This document shows positions 19,354 to 37,820 of a DNA stretch of 64,000 nucleotides, in pieces. Within the stretch, counting starts at the first letter, position 1. Every line of letters begins with the position of its first letter. The notes below the pieces were generated by a model. That model worked only from the letters and a program-made list of their open reading frames with translations, did not search any database and was not told where the DNA came from. Origin of the DNA: Pseudooceanicola antarcticus (GTDB taxonomy: Bacteria > Pseudomonadota > Alphaproteobacteria > Rhodobacterales > Rhodobacteraceae); NCBI RefSeq assembly GCF_900215355.1, contig NZ_OBEA01000010.1, positions 1 through 64,000 of the forward strand, given 5' to 3'. The translations under genes and the position numbers were made by a program.

Positions 19354-22300
19354 ATGACCCATCTTGCCCCTGTTGCGCAGGCGTCCTTGCCTGCGCCCAT
19401 TGTCCCGTTGGCAGCAAATCCTGCCCCTGCGATCGTTGCTGTTGCCGAAGCGCTGCAGCCCGATCTGGCGCAAGGGCTTCAGATCGACGCGCTGCGCCTG
19501 CGCCGCGAGATGGAACATGCCTTTGGCGGTTCCGATGCGACCGGTGCTTGGGACTGGAAGCTCGCCTATGAGGCGGGCGAGGTGGCGCTGATCCTCTTTC
19601 TGCGAAAGTTCGGTCGGGCGCTGCTTGCGCGTGCCGGCTCGCCTGCGGCGCTCTTGCCGATCCTCGCCAAGATGGCAGGCCTCTTGCCCACGCACACCCG
19701 GCGGTCGGAAGAGATGGAGCGCTTTCAGCAATTCTCGACGCCGCTGCCCATGGGGCTCGCGGCTGTGGCGGCAGCACAGATCACGCCCCGTGATCTTGTC
19801 CTAGAGCCGTCTGCCGGGACCGGGCTTCTGGCGATCCTCGCCGAGATCGCCGGCGGCACTCTGGCTCTGAACGAGTTGGCCGACACCCGCGCCGATCTTC
19901 TTGGCCTGCTGTTCCCGGGCCGCCCGGCCACCCGGTTCGATGCCGCGCAGATCGATGATCATCTCGACGCCTCCTCGAGCCCGAGCGTCGTCCTGATGAA
20001 CCCGCCCTTCTCGGCCCAAGCCAATGTCGATGGTCGGTCGACCGAGGCGACGGCCCGGCATCTGCGCTCGGCCCTCGCGCGCTTGGTCCCCGGCGGGCGG
20101 CTCGTTGCCATCACAGGGGCCGCATTTGCGCCGGATGCGCCTGCCTGGGCCGAGACCTTCGGCCGTCTGACCGAGACGGCCCATCTCGTCTTCACCGGCG
20201 CGGTGTCGGGCGTAGCTTTCGCCAAGCACGGCACCAGCTTCGAGACGCGGATTTCTGTCTTCGATAAATGCCGCGGCGGCGAGCCGGGCGGCATCACCGC
20301 AGACCTGCGCCAACCCACATCCCCGGACGTGGCACATCTGATGTCCCGGGTCACTGCCGAGGTTCCGCCGCGCCTCGAACTGGATCCAGCTCCTGCTGCG
20401 GGGCAGGGCCATTCTTCCCCCTTTCCGGGAAATTCTCACCTCACCACCCGCAAACCCGCCAGCCGATCGCACGCGACCTCTGCAGCCAACCCGGCGACAC
20501 CTGAAACGCCGATCGAGGCCGAGGAGCTGGACTACGCTCTCCGCAACGCCGCCGGGGACGAAGATGCCGCACGGCTGTCCGATGCGATCTACGAGACCTT
20601 CCGTCTGCAGGCAATCGACATCCCCGGCGCGGCCCAACACCCGACCAAGCTTGTGCAATCGGCGGCCATGGCCTCGGTCGCACCGCCGAAACCCAGCTGC
20701 CGCCCCAAGCTGCCGGTCGCGGTCCTGCGGGACGGGCTTCTGTCGGACGCGCAGCTCGAGACCGTCATCTATGCGGGCGAGGCGCATGGCGCGCATCTCG
20801 CCGGATCGTGGACCGTCGATGAGACTGGCGACATCGTAACCGCCGCGCCGGTCGATGCCGTTGACGCTCTCCGCTTCCGCCGCGGCTTCTTCCTCGGTGA
20901 TGGCACCGGCGCGGGCAAGGGCCGCCAGTCGGCTGGGATCCTGCTCGACAACTGGTGCCAAGGCCGCCGCAAGGCGCTCTGGATATCGAAAAGCGACAAG
21001 CTCCTCGAGGATGCGCAGCGCGACTGGTCGGCGCTTGGCCAGGAGCGCCTGCTGGTGACGCCGCTGTCGCGTTTCGCACAAGGGCGCGACATCCCGCTGA
21101 CCGAGGGCATTCTCTTCACCACCTATGCCACGCTGCGCTCCGAGGAACGCGGCGCGAAGAAATCCCGCGTCGACCAGATCGTCGACTGGCTCGGGGCGGA
21201 TTTTGACGGGGTGATCCTCTTCGACGAAAGCCATGCCATGGCGAATGCTGCCGGGGGCAAAGGCGAGCGGGGCGAAACACAAGCCTCGCAGCAGGGCAGG
21301 GCGGGTCTGCGCCTGCAGCACAAACTTCCGAATGCCCGCGTGGTCTATGTCTCGGCCACGGGCGCGACGACGGTCCACAACCTTGCCTATGCGCAAAGGC
21401 TCGGCCTTTGGGGTGGCGAAGACTTTCCGTTCGCAACGCGAGGGGAGTTTGTCGAGGCCATCGAGGCGGGCGGTGTCGCGGCGATGGAAGTTCTGGCCCG
21501 TGACCTCCGGGCGCTCGGCCTCTACACGGCGCGCTCGCTGTCCTATGACGGTGTCGAATACGAGATGCTGGAACACGCGCTCAGCCCCGAGCAGCGCGGA
21601 ATTTATGATGCCTATGCCGGGGCCTTCGCGATCATCCACAACAACCTGACCGCGGCGTTGGAAGCGGCGAACATTTCTGGCGAAAGCGGCACGCTGAACC
21701 GGCAGGCGAAATCCGCTGCGCGGTCAGCCTTCGAGAGCGCGAAACAGCGCTTCTTCGGCCATTTGCTCACCTCGATGAAGACCCCCACGCTGATCGCATC
21801 CATCGATGCCAATCTGGCTGCGGGTCACGCGGCGGTCATCCAGATCGTCTCGACCGGCGAGGCACTGATGGAACGCCGCCTGTCGGAAATCCCAACCGAC
21901 GAATGGAACGATATCCGCTGTGACATCACCCCTCGCGAATACGTCCTGGACTACCTCGCCCATTCTTTCCCGGTGCAGCTCTACGAGCCCTTCACCGACA
22001 GCGAGGGTAATCTCTCGTCGCGTCCGGTCACGCGCGACGGCCAACCGGTGGAGTGCCGCGAGGCGGTTCGCCGTCGTGACGCGCTGATCGAAAAGCTGGC
22101 TTCGCTGCCGCCGGTGCCGGGTGCGCTCGACCAGCTCGTCCAGCGCTTCGGCACCGATCTCGTGGCCGAAGTCACAGGGCGCTCGCGGCGCATCGTGCGC
22201 AAGGGCGAAGGGCATTCGGCACGGCTCGTGGTGGAGAACCGGGCTGGAGCCGCGAACCTCGCGGAAACCCAAGCCTTCATGGATGACGAAAAGCGTATCC

Positions 22301-23730
22301 TGATCTTCTCGGATGCCGGCGGCACCGGGCGCAGCTATCACGCCGATCTCGGGGCGAAGAACCAGCGCCTGCGGGTCCACTACCTCTTGGAACCCGGCTG
22401 GAAGGCAGACGCGGCGATTCAGGGCCTCGGACGCACCAACCGGACCAACCAGGCGCAGCCGCCGCTGTTCCGGCCTGTCGCCACCGATGTGAAGGCGGAG
22501 AAGCGGTTTCTGTCGACCATTGCGCGCCGTCTCGACACGCTTGGTGCTATCACGCGCGGTCAGCGGCAGACCGGCGGGCAAGGGCTGTTCCGCCCCGAGG
22601 ATAACCTCGAGTCGCCCTACGCCCGCGACGCCCTGCGCCAGCTTTACCGCCGCATCTATCGCGGCGATCTGGCGGGCTGCTCGCTCGGGGCCTTCGAGGA
22701 TGCCACTGGCCTCAGCCTGACCGATGACAACGGGCTGAAGGATGACCTGCCGCCGATCACGACCTTCCTCAATCGCCTGCTGGCGCTGACGATCGACATG
22801 CAGGCCGTGCTCTTCGCGGGTTTCGAGGAGCTGCTCGATCAGCGAATTGAGGGCGCCATCGCCGCCGGGGTCTATGATCTCGGGCTCGAGACACTCCGTG
22901 CCGAGAGCTTCCGGGTGACCGACGCACAGGTCATCTACACCCATCCGGGCTCCGGCGCGGAAACCCAGCTGCTGACCATCGCGGAAAAGCGCCGCAACAC
23001 GCCGACCTCGCTGGCCGATGCGCTCGAATGGCTGGATGACCCGCAAGCGCGGCTTCTGGTCAACAGCCGCTCGGGCCGGGCTGCCGTGCAGGTTCCCGCC
23101 ACCAGTCACATGCTGGACGATGGGACCATCGAGCCGCGCCTGCGCCTGATCCGCCCGCTTGATGCCAGCACGGTCCCGGCCAAGGTCATGGAGGACACCC
23201 ACTGGCTCGAGGCCGACCGCGCGGCCTTCACTGCGGCGTGGACTGCGGAACTGGCCGAGGTGCCGGAGTTTTCGGACTCCACGCTGCACATCGTGGCAGG
23301 TCTGCTGCTGCCGATCTGGAAGCAGCTTCCCCAGGATGAAACCCGCGTCTACCGCCTGCAGACCGATGACGGGCAGCGCATCATCGGCCGCCGCGTCTCG
23401 CCCGCCTGGGTCGCGACCACGCTGGCCGCCGATGCGCCCAAGCTCTCGGCCGCGCAGGTCCATGCCCTCGTTCTGGAGGGCAAGACCGTGGTGTGCCTGT
23501 CCGAAGGGATGGAATTGCACCGCTCGCGCGTCATGGGCGCGAACCGGATCGAACTGTCGGGCTTCTCGGAGGCAGCCAAGGATCGGCTCAAGGCCGATGG
23601 CTTCTTCTCGGAGATCATCAGTTGGAAGCTTCGGCTGTTTTGCCCGACCGACGCCGATGGCGTCGCGATACTGGATCGTCTGCTTGCACGTTGTCCTGTC
23701 GCAAGGCTACATGATCGCGGAGGTTGTTGA
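19354..23730 (+). CDS. Strawberry-notch family helicase fused to adenine methylase
   Basis: 1458 residues. An N-terminal methylase domain shows SAM motif LEPSAGTGLLAIL near 150 and catalytic NPPF near 216. After a linker (about 330-450) comes a helicase ATPase: Walker A-like GDGTGAGKGRQ near 516, DESH box (LFDESHAMA) near 623, and motif VI QGLGRTNRTNQAQ near 1023; the C-terminal 400 residues are the family-specific extension. Such proteins are frequent on alphaproteobacterial plasmids and in phages and are thought to protect or remodel incoming DNA. Start ATG 19354 has CCGGAG in front and follows a large leader hairpin. The Toprim gene follows by 3 bp, an operon. Confidence 0.92.
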   Translation: MTHLAPVAQASLPAPIVPLAANPAPAIVAVAEALQPDLAQGLQIDALRLRREMEHAFGGSDATGAWDWKLAYEAGEVALILFLRKFGRALLARAGSPAALLPILAKMAGLLPTHTRRSEEMERFQQFSTPLPMGLAAVAAAQITPRDLVLEPSAGTGLLAILAEIAGGTLALNELADTRADLLGLLFPGRPATRFDAAQIDDHLDASSSPSVVLMNPPFSAQANVDGRSTEATARHLRSALARLVPGGRLVAITGAAFAPDAPAWAETFGRLTETAHLVFTGAVSGVAFAKHGTSFETRISVFDKCRGGEPGGITADLRQPTSPDVAHLMSRVTAEVPPRLELDPAPAAGQGHSSPFPGNSHLTTRKPASRSHATSAANPATPETPIEAEELDYALRNAAGDEDAARLSDAIYETFRLQAIDIPGAAQHPTKLVQSAAMASVAPPKPSCRPKLPVAVLRDGLLSDAQLETVIYAGEAHGAHLAGSWTVDETGDIVTAAPVDAVDALRFRRGFFLGDGTGAGKGRQSAGILLDNWCQGRRKALWISKSDKLLEDAQRDWSALGQERLLVTPLSRFAQGRDIPLTEGILFTTYATLRSEERGAKKSRVDQIVDWLGADFDGVILFDESHAMANAAGGKGERGETQASQQGRAGLRLQHKLPNARVVYVSATGATTVHNLAYAQRLGLWGGEDFPFATRGEFVEAIEAGGVAAMEVLARDLRALGLYTARSLSYDGVEYEMLEHALSPEQRGIYDAYAGAFAIIHNNLTAALEAANISGESGTLNRQAKSAARSAFESAKQRFFGHLLTSMKTPTLIASIDANLAAGHAAVIQIVSTGEALMERRLSEIPTDEWNDIRCDITPREYVLDYLAHSFPVQLYEPFTDSEGNLSSRPVTRDGQPVECREAVRRRDALIEKLASLPPVPGALDQLVQRFGTDLVAEVTGRSRRIVRKGEGHSARLVVENRAGAANLAETQAFMDDEKRILIFSDAGGTGRSYHADLGAKNQRLRVHYLLEPGWKADAAIQGLGRTNRTNQAQPPLFRPVATDVKAEKRFLSTIARRLDTLGAITRGQRQTGGQGLFRPEDNLESPYARDALRQLYRRIYRGDLAGCSLGAFEDATGLSLTDDNGLKDDLPPITTFLNRLLALTIDMQAVLFAGFEELLDQRIEGAIAAGVYDLGLETLRAESFRVTDAQVIYTHPGSGAETQLLTIAEKRRNTPTSLADALEWLDDPQARLLVNSRSGRAAVQVPATSHMLDDGTIEPRLRLIRPLDASTVPAKVMEDTHWLEADRAAFTAAWTAELAEVPEFSDSTLHIVAGLLLPIWKQLPQDETRVYRLQTDDGQRIIGRRVSPAWVATTLAADAPKLSAAQVHALVLEGKTVVCLSEGMELHRSRVMGANRIELSGFSEAAKDRLKADGFFSEIISWKLRLFCPTDADGVAILDRLLARCPVARLHDRGGC

Positions 23731-26145: not shown

Positions 26146-26427
26146 ATGTTCGACACATCGCAGCAAATGGAAGTGTTCCCGACGACGGTCGATCTCAAGC
26201 GGATCGACCCGTCTCTCAACATGCGGCGCTTCTATCGAATGAGCGTTCAGCCAGACCTGTTTGGCGGCGCATGCCTTGTGCGGGAATGGGGCCGTATCGG
26301 GTTTCGAGGGCAGATGCTAATCGAACGGCACCCGGACGAGGGGCATGCTGTGACCGCCTTGTTGAAGCTCGCAGCGAGCAAGACGCGGCGAGGGTATCGA
26401 GCTGTCGCAGAGCAGAAAATGGATTGA
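26146..26427 (+). CDS. WGR domain protein, 93 aa
   Basis: A single WGR domain: RFYRMSVQPDLFGGACLVRE followed by WGRIGFRGQM, with a basic C-terminal tail ASKTRRGYRAVAEQKMD. WGR domains bind nucleic acid ends in PARPs and in bacterial proteins. Stand-alone WGR proteins are common in alphaproteobacterial accessory DNA. Start is uncertain: ATG 26146 (MFDTSQQMEV) with GAGAGG ahead is used, and ATG 26167 is also possible. It lies 107 bp before the methylase operon and may or may not belong to it. Confidence 0.8.
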   Translation: MFDTSQQMEVFPTTVDLKRIDPSLNMRRFYRMSVQPDLFGGACLVREWGRIGFRGQMLIERHPDEGHAVTALLKLAASKTRRGYRAVAEQKMD

Positions 26428-26533
26428 AAAGCGGCAAATGAGATTTCGCCAAGCGTGTATTTCGCGTTTATTTTCGGTAGTTTCCGGCCGCTTCTTTGAC
26501 TACGAATAGTGTAACGAATTCCGAGGCCTGTTG

Positions 26534-29224
26534 ATGAACCCGACTGAAATTTACGATGCCCTTGCCGAGATTGCGGCAAAGCCATTTGATCCGAATGAAT
26601 TCCCTTTTGCTTTTGCTGAGGCGACGGACGCGGCCAAGGCTGCGATTTCGAAACTGCGAAACGGCTCGACCAACAAGTCGGATCTTCCTGGCGGCGTTCT
26701 GTTCAACAAGAAGTTCCACTACGCGCCTGCGCTAAAGGGTCTGACCGATGTCACGCTCGATCAGCTGCGCGCTTCAAAGAAGACCAAGGCGTCCAAGCCC
26801 GCGATCCTGATCGCGTCCGATGGCGAAACCATTGCGGCTGAACATCCAGCTTCAGGCGATACACTGCATTGCACCTTCAGCGAGTTAGGTGATCATTTCG
26901 GCTTTTTCCTGCCCGCCGCGGGCAAGGAACGCTATCGCGCGGTCGAAGAGAACCCTGTCGACGTGAAAGCGACCGGCAAGCTCGCACGTCTGTATGATGC
27001 GCTGACCAAGGCCAACCCGGACTGGGGTAGCGACGAGCGGCGGCACGAGATGAACCAGCTGATGATGCGGCTCATCTTCTGCATGTTTGCCGAAGACGTC
27101 GGCATCTTCCCGGACAACCAGTTCTCGCGCCTTTTGTTCACTCATGCGGGCGACAAGGGCGAGGAGGCGCGTGAAACCATCATCGCCGCCTTCAACGCCA
27201 TGAACCTGCCCAAGGACAAGCGCGGCTCCCTGCCAGCATGGACGGCAGAGCTGGAATACGTCAACGGCGGGCTGTTCGCGGGCACCATCGACGCACCGCG
27301 GTTTGACACGATCTCCTTCCGCTACCTGCGCGATGCTTGCGATCTTGATTGGCGCGAAATCAACCCTGACATCTTCGGGTCGATGATCCAGTCGGTGGCT
27401 GATCCCAAGCAGCGCTCGGAACTGGGGATGCACTACACCTCGGTGCCGAACATCATGAAGGTGATCGGGCCGCTGTTCCTTGATGATCTGGATGCCGAGA
27501 TCCACAAGGCCTGGGACCGCGCAAAAGCGTTGCAGCAAGTGCTGGACCGCATGTCGCGCATTCGCGTCTTTGACCCCGCCTGTGGCTCGGGCAACTTTCT
27601 GGTCGTGTCCTACCGCGAACTCAGAGCGCGAGAGACGCGAATCCTGCAGCGGCTGGAGGAACTCAACGGCCCCGGCTCGATGCAGATGTTTTCGGCCATC
27701 CCGATCAGCAATTTCTATGGGATCGAGATTGCTGACTTTGCGGCAGAGACCGCAAAGCTCGCGCTGTTCATTGCCGAATATCAGGCCAATGCCAGCTTTG
27801 CCGAAGTCTTTGGCCGCCGTCCTGCCGCGCTCCCGCTGAAAGACGCGGCGCATATCCGCACGGGGAACTCGCTGCGTGAGAATTGGGATGAGGTCTGTCC
27901 TCCGCCCGCCGAGGGCGAGGAAGTGTTTATTGCTGGTAACCCGCCATTCCTAGGATCCACATACCAGAGCAAGGAACAGAAGGCAGATCTCGCTTTCGTA
28001 TTCGCTGAACATATCAAGAGCTTCGCAGCGTTCGACTTCGTCGCTGCATGGTTCTTCAAGGCATCCCGCTACATTCGCGGTTATTCCGCGCGGGCCGCCT
28101 TGGTGTCGACGAATTCGATCTGCCAAGGATATTCCGTGGCTGCGCTATGGCCCCATGTTCTGGGCAGTAATTTGGAAATCGGTTTTGCCCACAAGGACTT
28201 CAAGTGGCGCAACAATGCATCTGCGAATGCAGCAGTGATTTGCTCAATCATTGGAATTCGGAACCAGTCTAAAGAGCCAAAACGCTTATTCGCTGACAAT
28301 TTGGAAAGTTCGGCAGACAACATAAACGGCTACCTAGTGAATGCGCCAACTGTGGCTGTTGAAGGCACGCGTAACGGTTTGTTTGGTCTGCCTTCCATGG
28401 AGTACGGCAACAAGCCTGTCGAAGGGGGATATCTTCTTTTCACAGCTGAAGAGAAAGACGCCCTGCTAGAACAAGAGCCGCGCACAAGAGATTTCTTCAG
28501 ACCCTTCATGGGGTCCAAGGAGGTCGTCAACGGGTATCGCCGCTATTGCCTCTGGATTACGCCACAGACACTCGACGAGGCTAAGTCTATTCCGGCCATA
28601 GCATCGCGTATCGAAAGAGTTGCCGAATTTAGAGCTGGAAGCACGGACGCGTATGTGCGCGAAAAGTTGCTCCCATTATCCTATCGCTTCAAACAAGTAT
28701 TTGAAGCTAAATCCCATTCCATCCTCGTCCCCAGCGTCACATCGGAACGACGCCCCTATCTGCCCGTTGAACGGGTTGGGGCTGATGTTATTGCTTCAAA
28801 TCTTAACCAAGTGCTCTACGACGCCCCTGAATGGTGCATCGCCCTGATCGCTTCTCGCCTGCATCTGGTCTGGATCGCTACAGTCTGCGGCAAGCTGAAG
28901 TCTGATTTCCGCTATTCTAACACCCTCGGTTGGAACACCTTCCCCGTGCCGAAGTTCAGCGAGGATCAACTGGCAGAGCTATCCGCCTCGGCGCGGCGCA
29001 TCCTCAAGTGCCGCTACTCGCATTTCCCCAAGACCATCGCCGAGCTCTACGACCCCGACAAAATGCCCGACGACCTGCGCGCCGTGCATCGCGAAAACGA
29101 CGATCTCTTGGAGACGATGTATATCGGCCGCCCCTTCCGCAACGACACCGAGCGGCTGGAAAAGCTCTTCAAGCTCTATGCCGCCAAGGTGAAGTCGCAA
29201 GACAAGAAGGGCGCGCGCGCATGA
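26534..29224 (+). CDS. MmeI-like class I adenine DNA methyltransferase
   Basis: 896 residues. A helical N-terminal region (to about 300) contains LFCMFAEDVGIFPDNQFSRL-like and EYVNGGLFAG stretches known from MmeI/type IIG-like enzymes. The methylase core has FDPACGSGNFL near 346 and the catalytic NPPF near 472 (AGNPPFLGSTYQSKEQKADL). A target-recognition region and C-terminal helices follow (GWNTFPVPKFSE near 800). It should methylate adenine at a specific site. The short N terminus lacks a clear PD-(D/E)xK nuclease block that MmeI carries, so cutting is probably done by partners. First gene of a five-gene coupled operon; stop overlaps the next start. An additional TTG directly precedes the chosen ATG. 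Confidence 0.88.
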   Translation: MNPTEIYDALAEIAAKPFDPNEFPFAFAEATDAAKAAISKLRNGSTNKSDLPGGVLFNKKFHYAPALKGLTDVTLDQLRASKKTKASKPAILIASDGETIAAEHPASGDTLHCTFSELGDHFGFFLPAAGKERYRAVEENPVDVKATGKLARLYDALTKANPDWGSDERRHEMNQLMMRLIFCMFAEDVGIFPDNQFSRLLFTHAGDKGEEARETIIAAFNAMNLPKDKRGSLPAWTAELEYVNGGLFAGTIDAPRFDTISFRYLRDACDLDWREINPDIFGSMIQSVADPKQRSELGMHYTSVPNIMKVIGPLFLDDLDAEIHKAWDRAKALQQVLDRMSRIRVFDPACGSGNFLVVSYRELRARETRILQRLEELNGPGSMQMFSAIPISNFYGIEIADFAAETAKLALFIAEYQANASFAEVFGRRPAALPLKDAAHIRTGNSLRENWDEVCPPPAEGEEVFIAGNPPFLGSTYQSKEQKADLAFVFAEHIKSFAAFDFVAAWFFKASRYIRGYSARAALVSTNSICQGYSVAALWPHVLGSNLEIGFAHKDFKWRNNASANAAVICSIIGIRNQSKEPKRLFADNLESSADNINGYLVNAPTVAVEGTRNGLFGLPSMEYGNKPVEGGYLLFTAEEKDALLEQEPRTRDFFRPFMGSKEVVNGYRRYCLWITPQTLDEAKSIPAIASRIERVAEFRAGSTDAYVREKLLPLSYRFKQVFEAKSHSILVPSVTSERRPYLPVERVGADVIASNLNQVLYDAPEWCIALIASRLHLVWIATVCGKLKSDFRYSNTLGWNTFPVPKFSEDQLAELSASARRILKCRYSHFPKTIAELYDPDKMPDDLRAVHRENDDLLETMYIGRPFRNDTERLEKLFKLYAAKVKSQDKKGARA

Positions 29225-30012
29225 CGGGGACCTATGTATTGTTCCAGATGTGGGGACCGTTTCGCCAGTCGCTGATCGACGGACACTTGTTCTTTGTCGA
29301 ACAGGCACGCAAGCGGCTTCTCACGCAGTTTGAGAACATAGAAGCTGAGGCGGACAAGGCCTCGGAAGACTGGCTCGAGAACAACAGCCACCGTTTCGAT
29401 CCCGACCGAGACGATCCGGGGAGCTTCTATGAGGCGGCAGGAGAGGCGGGCATCGAGTTCTACCGCCTGCTCTCGGAAATGCGTGATCAGACCCAGCTGA
29501 GTGTGGTCGCGGGCATGTTCCATGAATGGGACAAGCAGCTTCGCGATTGGCTGGTGCGTGAGATTGGACATTGGCACCGGGGGGATCTGGCCGCCGAAAA
29601 GATCTGGAAGGCGAACTTTTCAGACCTCGCTGACCTGCTCGAAGGCTTCGGGTGGAAGATCCGCAGTACTGGGTATTTCAAGCTGCTGGATGCGTGCCGA
29701 CTTGTAGTGAATGTCTACAAGCATGGAGAGGGCACGGCATTTGAAAATTTGAAGAGGGAGTTTCCCGAGTACGTGGTCGATCCTTTTACGGACGAAAATG
29801 GCGTTAAATTCTACAACGACTTGGGTATTGAGTGGCGTGATCATACACACCTCAAGGTCAGCGATGTACAATTGCAGGCGTTCGCTGATGCCATCGTGTC
29901 TTTCTGGAAGGACGTGCCCGAGAACATCTCTAAGGCTGACGTTACCAGTGTCCCCGCGTGGTTCGAGAAGGCGATACTGAAAGATCGTGGTCAGAAGGCG
30001 GGCGCGAAATGA
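29221..30012 (+). CDS. HEPN-like helical protein of the methylase operon, 263 aa
   Basis: Starts with ATGA overlap on the methylase stop. The protein is all-helical. Residues 160-169 read RLVVNVYKHG; an Arg followed some residues later by Asn and KHG is a pattern often seen in HEPN-type proteins, though spacing differs from the classical Rx4-6H motif. The N-terminal half (ARKRLLTQFENIEAEADKAS) is probably coiled. No membrane segment. Because it is locked between the methylase and Abi genes, it is likely a dedicated partner such as a nuclease, toxin or regulator of the restriction complex. Family not recognised with certainty. Confidence 0.75.
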   Translation: MTGTYVLFQMWGPFRQSLIDGHLFFVEQARKRLLTQFENIEAEADKASEDWLENNSHRFDPDRDDPGSFYEAAGEAGIEFYRLLSEMRDQTQLSVVAGMFHEWDKQLRDWLVREIGHWHRGDLAAEKIWKANFSDLADLLEGFGWKIRSTGYFKLLDACRLVVNVYKHGEGTAFENLKREFPEYVVDPFTDENGVKFYNDLGIEWRDHTHLKVSDVQLQAFADAIVSFWKDVPENISKADVTSVPAWFEKAILKDRGQKAGAK

Positions 30013-30833
30013 CCGATCAGAACGCGCCCCAAAAAACAAGCGAGGCGGCGCCCGAAGGCCCGCCTCATGATCTTGTCCACGGGAGGGGCCAGAAGCCTGC
30101 CGAAGCACCTAAAGGCAACCTCACCGCGTCTCACAAAGCAATAGATAGCGCTGATGTGGCCACGGATCAAGTTCAAACTCTGACCGATCTTAGGGTTCAG
30201 AAGCTGTTAACCGACTGCCTGAGCGACCGAAGACTGCAGCGATACGCCCCTGCGGCGGGTGATGCCGGGGTGGCGCGCGAGGACATCTACCTCTGGAACT
30301 GCGACCTGTCCGAGGCCTTCCACTTTGCTTTGCATATGGCAGAAGTGACCTGCCGGAACAGCATCCACAACGCCCTGACGTACCGCGACCCGCGATGGTT
30401 TGAAAACGCAACCTTCCTGAAAATCCTGGACCCTGTTCGCAGGAAGGACCTCGACAACGCTATCGCTGATGAGACCGATCAACAAGGTGACGTTATGGAC
30501 GCCCACCACATGGTTTCGGCTTTGTCTTTCGGGTTTTGGGAGCATCTGACGACCAAGCGATTCCAGCGTTATCTGTTCCCGAAAGGGTTTCAGCGGGTGT
30601 TCAAGCACGCTCCATGGGATGCCAAGCTGGAAGACTTGCACGACTTGATCGAAAGCGTTCGCCGTTGGCGTAACCGCATCGCGCACCACAATGCGATCTT
30701 CGACAAAGGCCCATCATCGAAGTACCAAGACGCGTTAAAGCTGATCGCGTGGTCCTCTCCGGACTTGGAGGCATGGGTAGCAACCCGATGCCGTGTGAAC
30801 CAGATTATCAACGCGCGCCCGAAGGGAGAATGA
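30009..30833 (+). CDS. Abi_2-like HEPN protein
   Basis: 274 residues, ATGA overlap with the previous gene. The first 60 residues are Pro/Glu/Lys-rich and probably disordered. From residue 65 the sequence follows the Abi family (AbiD/AbiF type): YLWNCDLSEAFHFALHMAEV, SALSFGFWEHL, and RRWRNRIAHHNAIF, where R221/R223-x-x-H226 forms an intact HEPN ribonuclease motif. Abi proteins cause abortive infection by cutting RNA. Its tight coupling here suggests that restriction and abortive infection are joined in one response, with the Abi protein acting when DNA cleavage fails. One base separates its stop from the helicase start. Confidence 0.82.
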   Translation: MTDQNAPQKTSEAAPEGPPHDLVHGRGQKPAEAPKGNLTASHKAIDSADVATDQVQTLTDLRVQKLLTDCLSDRRLQRYAPAAGDAGVAREDIYLWNCDLSEAFHFALHMAEVTCRNSIHNALTYRDPRWFENATFLKILDPVRRKDLDNAIADETDQQGDVMDAHHMVSALSFGFWEHLTTKRFQRYLFPKGFQRVFKHAPWDAKLEDLHDLIESVRRWRNRIAHHNAIFDKGPSSKYQDALKLIAWSSPDLEAWVATRCRVNQIINARPKGE

Positions 30834-30834
30834 C

Positions 30835-32919
30835 ATGGTTGAAATGGTGAACGTGACGTATGGGCGCTCCAACTCGACAACCAACAAGTTGGGCCAACGC
30901 CCGATGCAGGCCCGTGCCTATGCCGCCCGAGCGGCGCAGTTCCTTTTGCTCAAAGCGCCGCCCGCAGCTGGCAAAAGCCGCGCGCTCATGTTCGTCGCTC
31001 TCGACAAGATGCTTCATCAGGGGCTGGAAAAGACGATCGTTTGCGTGCCCGAGACATCGATTGGCGGGTCATTCCGCTCGACGGATCTGACCCGCTACGG
31101 GTTTGAGGCGGACTGGGAGGTCGATGATCGCTGGAACCTCTGTTTGACGGGCGAGGACGCAGACAAGCAAAAGGTCAAGGCGTTTCAGGTGTTTCTGGAA
31201 AGCGATGCCAAGGTGCTGGTCTGCACCCATGCCACATTCCGCTTCGGTTTCGATGAGGTAGCAAGAACTGCGGGCATCGAGGCTTTTGACAATTGCTTCA
31301 TCGCCATTGACGAATTCCACCATGTCTCTGCCTCCGACAACAACCGGCTGGGCGTGATCCTGCGCAGTCTGATTTCCCGAGCGGAATGCCATGTGATGGC
31401 AATGACCGGCAGCTATTTCCGTGGGGATGCGGATCCAGTGTTGCGGCCAGAGGATGAGGATCGGTTCACCAAGATCACCTATAGCTACTACGAGCAGCTG
31501 GAAGGCTACGAATTTCTCAAGGCACTCGGGATCAACTACGAATTCTACAAGGGTAATTACATCAACGGATTGCCAGGGGTGCTGAACCCTGACCAAAAGA
31601 CGATCATCCACATTCCTCATCGGGGGTCGTCCGAGGCATTCGACGACAAATACAACGAAGTCGGAAAGATTCTCGACCTCTTGGGTGTCCATGAAGGTCG
31701 CGATCCTGAGACCGGATTTGATCTGGTCCGCAGGCCAGAAGGGCAGATTCTGAAAATCGCCGATCTGGTTGATGACGGACCAGGCCGGGACATCGTTAAA
31801 TCTGCGCTTTCGCGAGAGATCAAAGGCGCTGATGGTCGTCGAGACGATACGGCGGACCGCGAGAAGGTCGACATCATAATTGCGCTTGGTATGGCGAAAG
31901 AAGGGTTCGACTGGGTCTGGTGTGAACATGCCCTGACGATCGGCTACAGGTCATCGCTTACAGAAATCGTGCAGATTATCGGGAGAGCCACTCGCGATGC
32001 GCCGGGTAAGCCGCGTGCGCTCTTCACCAACCTGGTTGCCGAGCCGGGTGTGGAAACCGGCGTTGTGACGGACGCGGTCAACGACATGCTGAAGGCCATT
32101 TCTGGTTCTCTGCTTATGGAGCAGGTGTTGGCACCCAACTTCAAATTCTATCGGCGCGAGGATGGCGACGTGCGTGCCCCGGTCGGGACTGACGCCGAAG
32201 GCAACGTTACAATCGGTATCAAGGGACTGATTGAGCCACCCACTGATCGAGCTCGGGAAATCTGCGAGAAGGACATGCACGACTTGATGGCTACCGCCTA
32301 CCAGGAAATGGATAGACGGGTCCTTTCTCCCGACACGGCGCCTGAGGTTGCCACGCAAATGGTTCTGACGGACATCATCGAGCGCAGATACGAAACTCTG
32401 GATTCAGAAGAGGCCGAGTCTGTTCGGCAACACCTTGCGGCGCATATGAACGTGCTAACTTTGGCGCGGCGAGAAGCTGAGCGTGGCTTCGCTGAAGGGC
32501 AGTCACCTTTGACCGGCAGCCCCGGCAAGGCGGACGCTTCTGACGACGATGGGGATGAAGCCGGAGACAGCGCCCCCAATACGCTGCTGCAGATGGTCAA
32601 GAAATTCATCAACGTCCGCGACATCGATGTTGAGCTCATCGATAGCGTGAACACGTTTCGTGAACGGTTCGAGGTCGCATCGAAGTCTTTGAACTCGGAG
32701 CTCTTGGCACATGTCCAATCGGCGATGGTTGCATTGCGGGTCAATATGACCGGCGACGAGGCTCGAACACTTTGGCCGAGGATCAAGGCGTTCCGGGCCA
32801 GTGAGGGACGTGAGCCGAACGTTCATTCTGCCGATCCCTTGGAGAAGCGGATGGCAGAGGCACTGGCCTGGCTGAAAGCTGAGAAGGCGAAGCGGCTGCG
32901 CGAGGGCGCGATGCAATGA
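30835..32919 (+). CDS. SF2 DEAD/DEAH-box-type helicase of the defence operon
   Basis: 694 residues. Walker A APPAAGKSRA near 41-50, motif II IDEFHHVSA near 158-166 (DEFH box), SAT-like AMTGSYFRG near 188, and motif VI QIIGRATRDAP near 380. The C-terminal 300 residues are helical and probably interact with partners (the acidic linker SDDDGDEAGD lies near 565). It should translocate on DNA with ATP hydrolysis, as in type I/III restriction or BREX/DISARM helicases. ATG 30835 begins 1 base after the Abi stop; its own stop overlaps the GIY-YIG start by 4 bp. Confidence 0.86.
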   Translation: MVEMVNVTYGRSNSTTNKLGQRPMQARAYAARAAQFLLLKAPPAAGKSRALMFVALDKMLHQGLEKTIVCVPETSIGGSFRSTDLTRYGFEADWEVDDRWNLCLTGEDADKQKVKAFQVFLESDAKVLVCTHATFRFGFDEVARTAGIEAFDNCFIAIDEFHHVSASDNNRLGVILRSLISRAECHVMAMTGSYFRGDADPVLRPEDEDRFTKITYSYYEQLEGYEFLKALGINYEFYKGNYINGLPGVLNPDQKTIIHIPHRGSSEAFDDKYNEVGKILDLLGVHEGRDPETGFDLVRRPEGQILKIADLVDDGPGRDIVKSALSREIKGADGRRDDTADREKVDIIIALGMAKEGFDWVWCEHALTIGYRSSLTEIVQIIGRATRDAPGKPRALFTNLVAEPGVETGVVTDAVNDMLKAISGSLLMEQVLAPNFKFYRREDGDVRAPVGTDAEGNVTIGIKGLIEPPTDRAREICEKDMHDLMATAYQEMDRRVLSPDTAPEVATQMVLTDIIERRYETLDSEEAESVRQHLAAHMNVLTLARREAERGFAEGQSPLTGSPGKADASDDDGDEAGDSAPNTLLQMVKKFINVRDIDVELIDSVNTFRERFEVASKSLNSELLAHVQSAMVALRVNMTGDEARTLWPRIKAFRASEGREPNVHSADPLEKRMAEALAWLKAEKAKRLREGAMQ

Positions 32920-34124
32920 CGCGGCCGAGCTTGGATGACATATTTGCGGAAGACGATGAATTCGGACTGTTGGACGTTAGGCTGCGCGGCAGCCGCGCCG
33001 CTGTAGCTTCCGACCAAGGGGCTGGCGCGTTGAGAGAAGTCTCAGCATTCTTTGAGAAACACGGGCGCGTTCCCGATCCTGATGCGGTGGACCACGACGA
33101 GATGCGGATCGGTTCGATCTGGGCATCGATCAAGTCTGCGCCGACAGACCAGATGCGGCTGGAGGACCGGTTTGGGCTCTTGGACGACGAGACAGCGCAG
33201 GCATTGAAATCATGGCGAGATGAGCCGCTAGTTTCTGACGTGCCTGACAGCCTAGATGAAATTTTCGACGATGAAGAGCTTTCCGTCGATGCGTCTCTGA
33301 TCGATTTGAAACATACGACGCCTGCCGCAGAGCGACACTTGCCCGATCATCGGGCTGAATTTGTTCCCTGTCGCGATTTCGACCAGTTCGCAGAGCGTTT
33401 TGAAGCGGTGCAGCAGGCTTTGGAAGCGGGCGACCGCCAAGCACTGCCTGTAAAGAAATGGTCCGTGATTGAGCCCATAGAAGGCGACTTCTTCATCCGC
33501 AACGGCCTTCTCGCGATGATTGCTGAGAAATCCGAAATGTCCGCGCGAGGGGGTTCTCGTGACCACAGACTTCGGGTCATCTTTTCCAACGGCATGGAGA
33601 GTGATCCTCTCATGTCTTCGTTCCGCAAGTCGCTCAACGACGATAAGACGGCCAGAATGGTTCAGAAGGTCGGGCTTGGTCCCCTCGATCCGGACTGGGA
33701 ATCTGATCAACTAGAATTGTCTGGGACAATTTACGTCGCTCGGTCGCGCTCGGATGATCCGTCGATCAGAACTCAGCGAATGATCCTGCACAAGATCGGT
33801 GTCACCAGTCAGGATGTTGCGCGCCGGGTTGCAGATGCTCGTAACGATCCAACGTTTTTGCTAGCACCAGTGGACATCGTCGCGACCTACGAGCTTCAAA
33901 ACCTGTCCCGCCGCAAAGTTGAGAACCTTCTCCACCGCTTTTTCGCGACGGCCAGGCCGGCAGAGCTCTTTGTGACGGACCGCTTCGGGAAGAAGGTCTT
34001 TCCAAAGGAATGGTTTTACGTTTTGCCGGAACATGTCGGCCGTGCGGCGAAACTGATTGAAGAGGGGCGCCTTCATTTGTTCGAGTACGACGTACCCTCT
34101 CAAGAAATCGTAATGAAGAAATAA
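32916..34124 (+). CDS. GIY-YIG nuclease (T5orf172/MUG113 type)
   Basis: 402 residues. The acidic N-terminal 110 residues may dock on the helicase; a middle domain follows. The C-terminal GIY-YIG domain spans about 268-370: GTIYVARS in place of the GIY strand, HKIGVTSQDVARRVADARND with the conserved Gly and Arg, and NLSRRKVENLLHRFF with the conserved Glu and His. A TKEW-like KEWFYV ends the domain. It probably cuts unmodified DNA for the operon. Last gene of the coupled set; its stop is followed by 185 bp without genes. Confidence 0.86.
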   Translation: MTRPSLDDIFAEDDEFGLLDVRLRGSRAAVASDQGAGALREVSAFFEKHGRVPDPDAVDHDEMRIGSIWASIKSAPTDQMRLEDRFGLLDDETAQALKSWRDEPLVSDVPDSLDEIFDDEELSVDASLIDLKHTTPAAERHLPDHRAEFVPCRDFDQFAERFEAVQQALEAGDRQALPVKKWSVIEPIEGDFFIRNGLLAMIAEKSEMSARGGSRDHRLRVIFSNGMESDPLMSSFRKSLNDDKTARMVQKVGLGPLDPDWESDQLELSGTIYVARSRSDDPSIRTQRMILHKIGVTSQDVARRVADARNDPTFLLAPVDIVATYELQNLSRRKVENLLHRFFATARPAELFVTDRFGKKVFPKEWFYVLPEHVGRAAKLIEEGRLHLFEYDVPSQEIVMKK

Positions 34125-34253
34125 AATGTGGCTAGATTACGTACCGATCGGGAGCTTCCGCATCTAGGCGGGGTGGATGCACGGAGGTCATCACCAAAGG
34201 GCGATTGCGAAATCTATCGGTTGATGGGGTGTTAGAGGCAGAAGCGCTCTTGC

Positions 34254-34304
34254 ACCCAACTTATCTGTTGGGTACTTGGCCACAACAGATAAGTTGGGTA
34301 TATT
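34254..34304 (+). promoter_or_regulatory. 17-bp inverted repeat overlapping the promoter of the XRE-ImmA gene
   Basis: ACCCAACTTATCTGTTG (34254-34270) and CAACAGATAAGTTGGGT (34283-34299) are perfect complements with a 12-bp spacer. A possible -35 TTGGCC (34276-34281) and -10 TATATT (34299-34304) overlap it, so binding would block transcription. The predicted transcript would begin at about 34311, at the ATG itself, implying a leaderless mRNA. Confidence 0.6.
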
Positions 34305-34309
34305 GAGGC

Positions 34310-35638
34310 ATGACCATGAACGGAATCACCCTGAACGAGAAGGAAGCGCGGGACACACGCGCCCGTATTTCTCGTCTGACTGAGGCACTGAACTCGGAGC
34401 ACGCGATGGAACCGGTTGTTGCCGGTCTGCCTCCCGAGGTGGTTTCGCAGGTCTCGCGCATGATGAAGGCCGAGCGCGAGCGCCTGACCCACGCGGTAGA
34501 AGCGTACGAAGAGGCCAAGGAAACTCAGAAGCCGACTGCACTAAAGAACCTAGTCAATCACGAACCGGGCCTGATGCTGATCGTCGCGAGGATAGCCAAC
34601 GGTTACTCGCAGAAAGACCTAGCGTGGCGTCTCGGAGTGAAGGAGCAGCAGGTCCAGCGTTGGGAAGCGGAGCGATACGCCCAAATCAGTCTCAAGAATT
34701 ATAACCGTGTCGCAGCGCTGCTCGGCGTTCGCCTGACGGCGGACATGCCCGACCAACCAGCCTTCCGGGGGCTGGACAAAGTGATTGATGGGGTCTCGAA
34801 ATCCGAAATCAAGAAAATCCTCAAGCATGGGCGCGAGAACGGCTGGTTCGCCGAGGACTTCACCGAGGCTGAGCTGCGCCGCTACATCGCAGAGAACCGG
34901 ATCGACTTTGGAAGCCCTGGGCTTCTTCGAACTGGCCTCAACGTTGTGGATCACACCGACGACGTTATGCTCCATGCTTGGCGCGCTAGGGTAACAGCCA
35001 GGGCGCGCGATGCTTTCGCAGGCGTCGAGGATGTTCACGAGCCGCTTGAACTCAAGTGGATGCCCGAACTGGTCCGCCTGAGCAACGACCCCCACGGGCC
35101 GCTCCGGGCAGTGGAAGTGCTTGCAGCTCGCGGAATCGTTTTGATCGTGGAGCCTCAGGTGCCTGGCCTGAAGATCGACGGCGCTGCCTTCATCGTGGAT
35201 GGTAGACCGGTCATAGGAATGACCCTAAGGACCGACACCGTGGACAACTTCTGGTTCACACTGATGCATGAGCTTGCCCACGTCACGCTTCACTTCTCCA
35301 CCGGGCTAGCCGTAGGCTTCTACGATCAGACAGACCAAGAGACATCGGTCGATGAACAGGAGGAAGAGGCAAACCGCTTCGCTTCCAACCTGCTCATCCC
35401 AGAAGAACGCTGGCGGCGCTCTACCGCCCGCATAGCGAAGTCAGCTTCGGTCATCGAGCGCTTCGCCAACGAATTGGGTATCCATCCGGCAATTGTGTTC
35501 GGGCGGATACGCAAAGAACGGGGAGAGTGGTCCCTGTTCGCAAACAAGATCGGGAGGAACACCGTGAGAAAACTGTTTGTGGGCGAAGCCCAGAAAGGAA
35601 AGAGTGATGCTCCCATACTACCCGGCACTCAGGGCTAA
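34310..35638 (+). CDS. XRE regulator-ImmA/IrrE metallopeptidase fusion
   Basis: 442 residues. Residues 1-80 are helical and may sense or dimerise; an XRE helix-turn-helix follows near 93-140 (ARIANGYSQKDLAWRLGVK, QQVQRWEAERYAQ). The C-terminal half is an ImmA/IrrE zinc peptidase with the HExxH motif HELAH at 320-324 and EEEANRFASNLLIP supplying the third ligand region. Such proteins cleave or hold down a repressor or partner and are common in defence islands and HigBA-like units. The long palindrome in the promoter should be its own operator. ATG 34316 is an alternative start. The gene overlaps the beta-family gene by 32 bp. Confidence 0.87.
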   Translation: MTMNGITLNEKEARDTRARISRLTEALNSEHAMEPVVAGLPPEVVSQVSRMMKAERERLTHAVEAYEEAKETQKPTALKNLVNHEPGLMLIVARIANGYSQKDLAWRLGVKEQQVQRWEAERYAQISLKNYNRVAALLGVRLTADMPDQPAFRGLDKVIDGVSKSEIKKILKHGRENGWFAEDFTEAELRRYIAENRIDFGSPGLLRTGLNVVDHTDDVMLHAWRARVTARARDAFAGVEDVHEPLELKWMPELVRLSNDPHGPLRAVEVLAARGIVLIVEPQVPGLKIDGAAFIVDGRPVIGMTLRTDTVDNFWFTLMHELAHVTLHFSTGLAVGFYDQTDQETSVDEQEEEANRFASNLLIPEERWRRSTARIAKSASVIERFANELGIHPAIVFGRIRKERGEWSLFANKIGRNTVRKLFVGEAQKGKSDAPILPGTQG

Positions 35639-36698
35639 GCCCGGCGAGTTCGCGGCCTGCGGCTGGCTGGCCCCCCGTTATCAGGGGCACGTCTGCCCGC
35701 GCTTCGTGGTGCCGCCTCCCACCGAGTCCGATCCCGAAAAGGGGCGCGTACCCACGCTGGACGAGATTGCCTACATGATGGGCGAGCGCCTTGGAAAGAG
35801 CTGGCCCCACCGGCGTGCGTTTCTTGACCCGCAACTGGCAGCGGCCGCCCTCGGCGACGAGGGGGTGGCGACTCTCTTCCGCATCGCCACGGCCGTGAAT
35901 TCGCGCCTGCTTCCGGTGCTGACGATCGGCGATCTGGCCAACCCGGCCCGTCAGGCGCTCGTTCGGGACGGGGACGTCAGGGCGGGCATCTACATGGACT
36001 TCGAGGAAGTTGATCCCGCCGCTTTGGTCGAGGCGGTGGAGAAGGCGGGAGTCCGGCCTGAACAGTGTGTCCTCTTCGTGGACTTCACTGGCGCCCCCCT
36101 GGGCGCCGACTTCGCGCCTGCCATCGGCGAAATCTTCGACCAACTGGACGCCGCGGCGCGGTGGAGCAAGATTGTCTACCAAGCTTCGGCGTACCCCGAC
36201 AAGCTGCCGGTCGGAGCTAACGAGTGCACGTTGATCGCAAGGGCGGAGTGGACCACCTTCCAGGCGGCCCTGAAAGAGACCGGCGTCCAACCCGATCGAC
36301 TTGCATACGGTGACTTCGGCGCGGATTGCGGGCGGATGGTGTTCCCGAAGGGCAAGGGAGGCGGAAGGCCGAGGCCGCACCTGCGCTACACGGGCAAGAC
36401 CCACACCTTGGTGGTCAGGGGCAGCGACTCGGGAGCTTTCACGCTGACTATGCGCGACGTCTGCAAGCAGATCATCGAGAGCAAGGAGTACAGCGGCAGG
36501 GGCTTTTCCCCTGCGGACGACCGTATCTGGCGAAACGCGAAGGGGCTGACCGAAACCTGCGGCGATGCGACTGGCTGGAGGGAACTAAACACGGCTCATC
36601 ATCTTGTTCAAGTAGTCCGGGATCTGGGGGCAATTTCCGGAATTGTATTTGACGAGGATCCGGTCAGTGAATTCGCGGAACAGGGAAGCCTTTTCTGA
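35607..36698 (+). CDS. Beta family protein
   Basis: 363 residues from ATG 35607 (MLPYYPALRAKPGEFAACGW), preceded by AGAAAGGAAAG. It matches the Beta_protein family named after a phage T4-like beta protein: an N-terminal YYPALRAKxGE opening, a TIM-barrel-like body (LLPVLTIGDLAN, DVRAGIYMDFEEVD) and CVLFVDFTGAPL. The function is unproven, but members repeatedly pair with an XRE-ImmA gene in defence islands, as here with a 32-bp overlap. It probably works as an effector controlled by the upstream regulator. Confidence 0.82.
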   Translation: MLPYYPALRAKPGEFAACGWLAPRYQGHVCPRFVVPPPTESDPEKGRVPTLDEIAYMMGERLGKSWPHRRAFLDPQLAAAALGDEGVATLFRIATAVNSRLLPVLTIGDLANPARQALVRDGDVRAGIYMDFEEVDPAALVEAVEKAGVRPEQCVLFVDFTGAPLGADFAPAIGEIFDQLDAAARWSKIVYQASAYPDKLPVGANECTLIARAEWTTFQAALKETGVQPDRLAYGDFGADCGRMVFPKGKGGGRPRPHLRYTGKTHTLVVRGSDSGAFTLTMRDVCKQIIESKEYSGRGFSPADDRIWRNAKGLTETCGDATGWRELNTAHHLVQVVRDLGAISGIVFDEDPVSEFAEQGSLF

Positions 36699-36716: not shown

Positions 36717-37820
36717 TTACCCAAGCTTCAACCAGTACCTCGTATGGCGTCGCTCACCAGTTCGGCTGAGCGCACCTTTCTCGACCAGATCCTGCAGATC
36801 GCGGGTCGCGGTTGCGCGTGAGGTTCCGGTGATCTTGAGGTAGTTCTCGGCGCTGAGGCCGCCTTTGAATCCGCCAGGACCTTCCCGAAACATTCGAGCG
36901 ATGGCCTTGGCCTGACGTTCGTTCAAGCGGTCTCTGTGACGATCGTAGAAGTGTGCCTTGCTGATGAAGAAACCGACGCGGTCGAGTGTGACCTGTTGGG
37001 CCTTCAAGACAGTTTCCGCGAACCAGACGAGCCAATCGGTCGCCTCGAGCGTTTTTTGATGCTGCTCAAGCTGATCGTAGTATCCCTTGCGCTCCTTCTC
37101 GATGGTGAAGGCGAGCGAGATGAGGGTCGGCTGGCCAATGTTCTGCGCCAGCGACTTTTCCGCGAGGGCGCGACCCAAGCGGCCGTTGCCGTCTTCGAAT
37201 GGGTGGATACTCTCGAAATAGAGGTGGCTTAGCCCTGCGCGCGTCAGCGCTGGAAGCGGCTCTGCTCCCCCGGGCCCGGTCTTGTTGAACCAATCCGCGT
37301 ATCGCTCCATCTCAGGCATGACCCGCTCCGAGGGCGGCGCTTCGAAATGGATCGTGGGCCGGTCAAGGCGGCCGGAAACGATTTGCATCGCCTCGGCGTG
37401 GTGTCGGTAGGCCCCGATGGTTTCCAACCGGCGGTCATGGGACAGGAGCATCCGATGCCAGCGGTACAGCGTCTCGTGGCTCAGCTTGTCCGCAAAGCTG
37501 GAATAGACGTCGACCATCATTTCCGCGACGCCCTGTTCGCGCGGTTTGGCAGGGGTGCTGTCCGGATCGAGGCCCAGATGGCGGCGCAGCGAAGACTGGA
37601 CACTGAGCCGGTCGAGGATTTCGCCCTCGATGGCGCTCGTTTGCATCGCTTCCTCGCTGAGAAGTTCGATGCGGAGTTGCTCGCGCTCCGGCTGGCTGAC
37701 ATGATGGACCGCGCCGAGGATTTCCCCGGACGACAGCAGAAACGTCTGCTCGAACGGCTCCAGAGCGGAGGCGTCATACCGGAAATCCGGCCAATCGGGC
37801 AGCGTCCAGTTCCAAGCCAT
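36717..37820 (-). CDS. Fic family protein (AMP transferase type)
   Basis: 367 residues. An N-terminal DUF4172-like region carries the inhibitory helix motif TSAIEGE (61-67). The Fic core has HPFEDGNGRLGR (206-217), with all catalytic and nucleotide-binding residues. A C-terminal winged helix (ENYLKITGTSRATATRDLQD, near 325-345) should bind DNA. Class II Fic proteins transfer AMP to target proteins and are self-inhibited. The start codon at 37818-37820 lies inside a 15-bp inverted repeat, so the protein probably represses its own gene through the winged helix. Convergent with the beta gene. Confidence 0.92.
   Translation of the reverse strand: MAWNWTLPDWPDFRYDASALEPFEQTFLLSSGEILGAVHHVSQPEREQLRIELLSEEAMQTSAIEGEILDRLSVQSSLRRHLGLDPDSTPAKPREQGVAEMMVDVYSSFADKLSHETLYRWHRMLLSHDRRLETIGAYRHHAEAMQIVSGRLDRPTIHFEAPPSERVMPEMERYADWFNKTGPGGAEPLPALTRAGLSHLYFESIHPFEDGNGRLGRALAEKSLAQNIGQPTLISLAFTIEKERKGYYDQLEQHQKTLEATDWLVWFAETVLKAQQVTLDRVGFFISKAHFYDRHRDRLNERQAKAIARMFREGPGGFKGGLSAENYLKITGTSRATATRDLQDLVEKGALSRTGERRHTRYWLKLG

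Follow-up and report, generated by a model that had tools for sequence, protein, structure and literature searches.

A DnmA-YeeB-YeeC-type restriction-modification operon of Pseudooceanicola antarcticus carries an AbiF-type gene with a conserved, predicted antisense RNA element

Bacillus subtilis carries DnmA(YeeA)-YeeB-YeeC, a cluster of a nuclease-less MmeI-like methylase, an SF2 helicase and a T5orf172/GIY-YIG protein whose function was left open as a possible relic (PMC7261158, PMC9973331). A second line of work concerns AbiF toxins. In C. difficile the RNA RCd22 binds and silences AbiF, an Abi_2 HEPN protein with an R-x4-H motif (PMC12373285), and PbAbiF (PDB 8vz6; PMC12737573) shares this fold, motif and association with a structured RNA. 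Abi2/AbiF/AbiD genes have been reported embedded in restriction-modification (RM) operons, and the HEPN RNase PrrC, encoded within the type Ic operon EcoprrI, is a proposed second-line defence (PMC3710099). The locus described here joins these three lines: DnmA-YeeB-YeeC function, HEPN suicide RNases in RM operons and RNA-guarded AbiF toxins.

The analyzed window, a stretch of 64,000 nucleotides, contains five tightly coupled genes.
26534-29224, plus strand: ORF M, a DnmA/YeeA-type (MmeI-family) adenine methyltransferase
29221-30012, plus strand: ORF H, an optional cargo gene with a mostly helical predicted model
30009-30833, plus strand: ORF A, an optional cargo gene for an Abi_2/AbiF-type HEPN protein
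30835-32919, plus strand: ORF B, a YeeB-type SF2 helicase
32916-34124, plus strand: ORF C, a YeeC-type GIY-YIG (T5orf172/MUG113) nuclease
A preliminary description had placed these ORFs and their junctions correctly, with ATGA overlaps at 29221, 30009 and 32916 and a single nucleotide between A and B. It had also named an MmeI-like methylase, an Abi protein with RNRIAHH, an SF2 helicase with a DEFH box and a GIY-YIG nuclease, all of which are borne out by the profile matches and motifs given below.

M matches all five MmeI domains of Pfam (MmeI_N, hel, Mtase, TRD and C; MmeI_Mtase with 337 bits) as well as the PADLOC type IIG model (899 bits). Its methylase motifs are intact, the DPACGS and GNPP columns being identical in 75/75 M proteins. 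M shares the methylase, target-recognition and C-terminal domains with the type IIL enzyme MmeI (PMC4833311) but, unlike it, has no conserved E-x-K nuclease motif: within residues 1-160, the columns that are at least 95% conserved among 75 M proteins contain none. M does not carry the catalytic nuclease (D70, E80 and K82 in MmeI) that marks MmeI and the type IIL-IIG enzymes. The solved MmeI structure 5hr4 aligns with M only from residue 128; Pfam MmeI_N nonetheless matches residues 1-159 with 89.7 bits. B matches Pfam DEAD at cut-off level (26.4 bits, cut-off 26), with GKS at 46-48 and DEFH at 159-162, and at least 97% of the 78 aligned relatives retain its helicase motif columns. C contains a MUG113/T5orf172 domain at residues 270-380 (Pfam). 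Searching for relatives of B yielded 263 plasmid records and 125 genome stretches, of which 80 of the latter were kept; C adjoins B in 78 of these, M is present in 77, and all three genes are found in 76. Methylase, helicase and T5orf172/GIY-YIG gene follow each other in this order on one strand, as in B. subtilis (PMC7261158, PMC9973331), and the methylase is devoid of an N-terminal PD-ExK nuclease motif. M-B-C is a DnmA-YeeB-YeeC (MmeI-family, 'type I-like') RM operon. Unlike the B. subtilis cluster, the operon here has two additional genes inserted between methylase and helicase, along with a predicted antisense RNA. BREX and DISARM do not describe it: PglX reaches 23.9 bits against a cut-off of 500, DrmMI gives partial matches of at most 107.5 bits, and the matches listed for the ten proteins (for M, 25 out of 38 rows) include no BREX or DISARM model other than those of methylases.

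A is predicted to be an AbiF-type HEPN ribonuclease. It matches the Abi_2 profile with 28.8 bits (cut-off 25.6), has the AbiF fold and contains RNRIAHH, an R-x4-H active site with R221/H226; in profile, fold and motif it resembles AbiF of C. difficile and PbAbiF. PADLOC PD-T4-5 matches residues 71-246 with 52.1 bits, and residues 1-55 are predicted to be disordered. The position of an HEPN RNase gene within an RM operon recalls PrrC in EcoprrI. Unlike in that system, the host operon is DnmA-YeeB-YeeC instead of type Ic, A gave no match to an ABC-ATPase and an RNA element is present. Relatives of A mostly stand alone, with M, B and C absent from the flanks of 56/58 loci checked (51 distinct places); among viral contigs, a search with the single protein found none and a search with an alignment found one.

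The 5' part of A is conserved in a manner atypical of coding sequence. Synonymous codon identity is 0.89-0.90 in codons 1-60 vs 0.39-0.68 afterwards, and the third codon position holds a share of 0.34-0.38 of the differences vs 0.60. The six lowest of 478 windows across the five genes fall within A codons 1-70. This region contains a putative RNA element.
30134 to 30031, minus strand: predicted small RNA of ~104 nt, in antisense orientation to codons ~8-42 of A
30031..30066, minus strand: intrinsic-terminator-like RNA end with a GAGGCGG/CCGCCTC stem (30042-30048 with 30060-30066)
30142..30170, minus strand: promoter-like boxes for the RNA, TTGATC-N17-TATCTA, weak alone (7/12 consensus letters)
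A covariance model (R1) applied to 89 loci left out of model building gave four matches (E 5.5e-12 to 5.6e-5), all upstream of solitary A genes, with the next at E 0.75. In the window and the 80 helicase loci it matched only the ten A-bearing operons, eight of which are its training copies; the next row had E 0.2. In all three readable solitary relatives (L089, L144 and L115) the reading frame stops inside the RNA or directly behind it, and the same DNA lies outside the ORF. The frame of another locus, L140, was not scored because its A match spans two frames. The element is conserved and covarying: 94.1% of cells pair, and two-sided changes occur in 8 pairs (1/500 shuffles as high) and 21 cells (0/500). 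These values stem from alignment A7, as MAFFT had shifted the hairpin in part of the rows of A4 and A5. Restricting the alignment to the embedded rows (A6) leaves slight covariation, and the stronger result requires the four solitary relatives. Folding energy is not exceptional and hence was not used as evidence.

The element does not match the Rfam model of AbiF RNA antitoxins (RF03085). Rfam gave no match up to E 5 across 26400-34400, no abiF match over cut-off in 20 loci, only unrelated weak rows in L122, and no abiF match over cut-off in 12 genomes with 150 candidates scored each, a scan in which control genomes gave none either. Compared with the RNAs of C. difficile AbiF and PbAbiF (PMC12373285, PMC12737573), it is of another sequence class, nested in the toxin ORF and situated inside an RM operon. 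It is also opposite in strand to the toxin gene, unlike the AbiF RNA of C. difficile. Searching plasmid DNA with the RNA region returned the known Methylorubrum locus and one 22-base Streptomyces match; an exact-pattern scan of viral contigs with the RNA core returned two matches that lack an A relative and were taken as chance. The preliminary description had overlooked the element.

Which strand is used separates our reading from an unlikely one, namely that the conserved region is a plus-strand structured leader through which A, by binding it, would hold down its own translation, with no antisense RNA. The region has no coding signature, the hairpin can form on either strand, and a structured 5' region controls L. 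lactis abiD1 (PMC12373285), all of which would fit such a leader. However, 23 G-U vs 3 A-C cells point to the minus strand. On this strand the putative RNA end has an inner GCC-UUCG-GGC within the outer stem, followed by U6, and both the U-run and the UUCG/UACG loops are located there. A terminator scan of the region lists 15 candidate sites, this end being one of them, compared with 9.3 (sd 2.9) in shuffles. Across 46 solitary A loci, terminator-like sites are found in 28 on the minus strand vs 3 on the plus strand, with 5% in shuffles, and promoter scores are enriched on the minus strand for the 46 as a set; the weights of this score were self-chosen, and values of single loci overlap those of shuffles.

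We consider it likely that an RM operon took up H and the AbiF toxin A together with its RNA, and that the nested antisense RNA silences A. By analogy with their families, M would methylate one strand of an asymmetric site, and B and C would attack DNA that is devoid of the methyl mark. A may have arrived with a divergently transcribed small RNA. On capture the start of its frame would have moved upstream past the RNA gene until it overlapped the stop codon of the gene before it, which would place the RNA antisense within the first ~60 codons of A. The RNA probably remains an inhibitor that binds A, like the AbiF RNA of C. difficile, and its antisense position would also let it pair with the message of A. 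If host transcription or the operon were lost, A would be released, resulting in RNA cleavage and growth arrest, and A would act as a second line behind restriction comparable to PrrC behind EcoprrI. The data show the gene content, the cargo slot, the fold of A and the conserved RNA element with its strand bias; we infer that the RNA is expressed and neutralizes A, how A is triggered, and whether it touches the RM proteins at all.

Quite improbable is the B. subtilis proposal of a modification relic, in which M methylates and everything else including the cargo is passenger DNA. Deletion of yeeB and yeeC in B. subtilis left susceptibility to three phages unchanged and deletion of dnmA did not alter plasmid uptake (PMC7261158, PMC9973331), whereas, as PMC9973331 reports, Vibrio crassostreae became more sensitive to some phages when the homologs were deleted. 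The five intact frames and the retained helicase motifs also speak against a relic. That the first 55 residues of A form a conserved peptide that docks onto the RM complex is barely credible despite an amino-acid identity of 0.78-0.85 over codons 16-45 in embedded copies, as all three codon positions take a nearly equal share of the differences, the same DNA lies outside the ORF in the three solitary relatives and the residues are predicted to be disordered.

The junction of M and B is a cargo slot. Among the 77 loci with both genes they abut in 59, while 18 carry cargo in between: H+A in 6, A alone in 3 and other genes in 9, including RhuM, KilA-N, BrnT and DUF1016. Of 17 non-own B loci from 385 alphaproteobacterial genomes sampled evenly over the class, 8 have the two genes abutting and 7 carry cargo, while 2 could not be assigned. 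On a helicase tree calculated with a quick method, supported branches force at least 3 of the 5 changes that the H+A label requires, and at least 4 of the 7 required by the other-cargo label. Gene content refutes an obligate five-gene defense system, which has next to no chance of being correct: although all five genes are coupled and 6 further loci keep their order, 71/77 loci miss the H+A pair, H occupies the slot without A in Sinorhizobium, and both H and A occur elsewhere without the remaining genes. The five coupled genes are real, yet not one five-gene system. From the preliminary interpretation, the split RM-like operon with an internal Abi-type gene, distinct from BREX and DISARM, stands; the 'undescribed five-gene system' falls, since M-B-C is the published DnmA-YeeB-YeeC cluster (PMC7261158, PMC9973331) and the five genes are joined in so few relatives, an outcome that the preliminary description had itself named as refuting.

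A more far-reaching version of our reading falls slightly short of an even chance. In this version, the element would be an AbiF antitoxin RNA gene with its own promoter and terminator, antisense inside the toxin coding sequence, and the methylase/helicase junction of DnmA-YeeB-YeeC operons would be a general socket for second-line effectors. A single RNA would act both on the toxin protein, by neutralizing it (type III-like), and on the toxin message, by pairing (type I-like). The toxin/antitoxin balance would be set by transcription of the operon, which runs head-on through the RNA gene. If true, the antisense overlap of toxin and antitoxin RNA in one ORF would make a compact, self-balancing unit, mobile as operon cargo. 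RNA-guarded AbiF toxins are related to Cas13. Searches of open-licence literature gave no earlier description of a nested antisense AbiF RNA or of this cargo slot. An RNA element with no Rfam match thereby has coordinates and a covariance model, and further cargo genes from the same socket are listed.

The second cargo gene, H, had been called HEPN-like, which its sequence does not confirm: at E 0.1, neither Pfam nor PADLOC nor NCBIfam matches it. Its predicted model is mostly helical (pLDDT 86.8) and gave an HEPN assignment no support, with no PDB match by Foldseek (best E 2.1), no clear fold match and VIA-align rows at noise level. Tentatively, a second stand-alone defense effector is its most likely role. 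M, B and C are absent from the flanks examined around H in 7/8 plasmid loci, one prophage-like contig and one further genome, and the one viral contig with an H relative is prophage-like. We found 801 homologs of H; N164, K167, H168, G169 and G171 are invariant in an alignment of 42 rows (A1).

The five open reading frames put forward in the preliminary description, together with their junctions, were borne out: consecutive genes overlap by ATGA at three junctions and lie 1 nt apart at the fourth.

26534-29224, plus strand: M, DnmA/YeeA-type methylase
29221-30012, plus strand: H, cargo gene
30009-30833, plus strand: A, Abi_2/AbiF-type HEPN protein
30134-30031, minus strand: predicted small RNA, antisense within the 5' part of A
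30835-32919, plus strand: B, YeeB-type helicase
32916-34124, plus strand: C, YeeC-type GIY-YIG protein

Pfam assigns all five MmeI domains to M, Abi_2 to A and a T5orf172/MUG113 domain to C; B belongs to the DEAD-type helicases. H gave no match in Pfam, PADLOC or NCBIfam and is probably a second effector.

The locus had been proposed as an undescribed five-gene defence system; its M-B-C core is already known. As described in two papers, the dnmA-yeeB-yeeC cluster combines a helicase and a T5orf172 protein with an MmeI-like m6A methylase that lacks a nuclease motif, in a gene order conserved between species; the B. subtilis cluster gave no protection against the three phages tested, and effects on phage sensitivity are reported for V. 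crassostreae homologues (PMC7261158, PMC9973331). Among the plasmid relatives of B, one bears the annotation restriction/modification component YeeB. All 75 M relatives share the methylase motifs DPACGS and GNPP without change, and no E-x-K motif is conserved across the 75 in residues 1-160. Alignment with the solved MmeI begins only at residue 128. Since Pfam MmeI_N still matches (89.7 bits), the domain is retained though the motif is not. Where A is embedded in the operon, codons ~680-735 of M form a hypervariable target-recognition region (synonymous identity 0.3-0.4), despite which B is up to 99% identical to the window copy in the closest loci. Variable target recognition against a near-identical B suggests that M swaps specificity.

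A B-based scan with one genome per species found 125 relatives. The 80 best of them were kept, a set biased to close relatives. M lies upstream of B in 77 of these 80 loci. The two genes abut in 59 of the 77 (gap -10 to 43 nt); the slot between them holds H and A in six loci, A only in three and something else in nine. By Pfam and PADLOC, this other cargo comprises RhuM (relative loci L067 and L076), KilA-N (L068), BrnT (L073), DUF1016_N (L077), a CoiA-like protein with a PDC-S42 match (L079) and proteins without assignment (L065, L072, L074). Among 385 genomes drawn evenly across the Alphaproteobacteria, B is present in 17, own genome counted. Seventeen class loci other than our own comprised eight that abut, seven with cargo and two undecidable inside the 1.5-kb flank; the cargo here was PDDEXK_4, BrnT, YhcG/DUF1016, RhuM, zeta-toxin-like and two without assignment. 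A 75-row helicase tree (quick method, SH-aLRT support only) requires the H+A label to change five times, and supported branches force at least three of these changes. Cargo at the M/B junction is thus repeatedly gained and lost.

Judged by eye, the unassigned 137-aa cargo proteins of L065 (3535-3948) and L072 (8573-8986), matched by neither Pfam nor PADLOC, look alike and show a PD-(D/E)XK-like motif. Longer ORFs of similar appearance occur in L107.

H and A also occur outside the operon. H has 801 homologues and is found in 2 of the 385 class genomes, own counted. One of eight plasmid loci read (Sinorhizobium) is M-H-B-C, and in the other seven the flanks, up to 6 kb, gave no match to M, B or C; the same held for H in L093 and in the prophage-like contig L113. 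Besides H, L113 (436-1995, minus strand, and 4803-5585) bears a separate ORF that by eye resembles a reverse transcriptase. With the own genome counted, 23 of 385 genomes of the class and 30 of 390 of the order have a relative of A. A stands without M, H, B and C in 56 of 58 further loci (51 distinct places), and the remaining two gave no match whatever in the same check, A included. All four other order genomes with close A copies have M-H-A-B, on contigs that by their length are those of L020, L012, L044 and L008.

Synonymous codon identity across the ten embedded versions of A drops from 0.89-0.90 over codons 1-60 to 0.39-0.68 beyond. The share of differences at codon position 3 is near even in the 5' part (0.34 and 0.38) and 0.60 in the rest; of 478 windows of 30 codons taken over the five genes, the six with the lowest shares fall in A codons 1-70, and further low ones come from the variable target-recognition region of M, where synonymous identity is 0.30-0.39. 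A covariance model trained on eight embedded copies gave four matches at E < 1e-4 in 89 loci outside training (L089, L144, L115, L140; elements first noticed by eye before the search), each directly preceding a solitary A relative with 35-50% identity. In all but L140, whose A match is split over two frames and was left unscored, the reading frame of A is closed inside the RNA or 14 nt past it, placing the RNA outside the A ORF in 3/3 readable solitary relatives and inside in 10/10 operons. The operon element does not match Rfam abiF, and abiF was found in none of 20 solitary A loci at the Rfam cut-off. Several AbiF-linked RNA classes probably exist upstream of distant A relatives; hairpins of other shapes are seen there by eye (e.g. 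L116-L138, L154-L174).

Read as minus-strand RNA, each of the 14 elements shown finishes with a GC-rich stem and a stretch rich in U, with a UUCG loop in the window and UACG in L053 and L115. In a ten-row alignment (A7), 94.1% of cells pair, with two-sided changes at eight pairs (1/500 shuffles as high) and in 21 cells (0/500); further pair types are not elevated (17 vs 18.1). RNAalifold predicts a similar structure. The folding energy is not remarkable, which, like the missing Rfam abiF match, counts against the predicted RNA. Wobble cells number 23 for the minus strand versus 3 A-C cells (plus-strand wobbles), a count biased toward the minus strand from whose fold the structure was derived. 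A non-redundant set of 46 solitary A loci has a mean best promoter score (weights set by us) of 7.38 on the minus strand and 6.43 on the plus strand, against 6.46 (sd 0.63) in shuffles; 28 of the loci have terminator-like sites on minus and 3 on plus (shuffles 5%). As a set, these loci are thus enriched in minus-strand terminators and promoters. The promoter-like boxes in the window, TTGATC-N17-TATCTA, are weak alone, 7/12 letters being reached by 12% of that strand's positions.

From family knowledge, M would most likely mark host DNA, and B with C would restrict DNA without this mark. AbiF precedents and the conservation make it most likely that the nested RNA would silence A for as long as nothing disturbs transcription or the operon. 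That A might contact the RM proteins we can only infer. HEPN genes within RM operons are already known. New by the open-licence literature searched are AbiF carried as cargo by a DnmA-YeeB-YeeC operon, the view of the M/B slot of such operons as a socket, a predicted alphaproteobacterial AbiF-linked RNA element that has no Rfam match, and the antisense position of this element within the toxin ORF.

Upstream of the operon, a 1458-aa ORF (19354-23730) shows methylase- and helicase-like motifs by eye; on a Rhodobacter plasmid, a protein of about this size with a methyltransferase/helicase annotation adjoins an A relative. Downstream, the next genes (34310-36698) match PADLOC PD-Lambda-2_B at 236.8 bits and PD-Lambda-2_C at 80.2 bits, the set's first gene not appearing among the proteins scanned, followed at 36717-37820 (minus strand) by a Fic-family protein with DUF4172.
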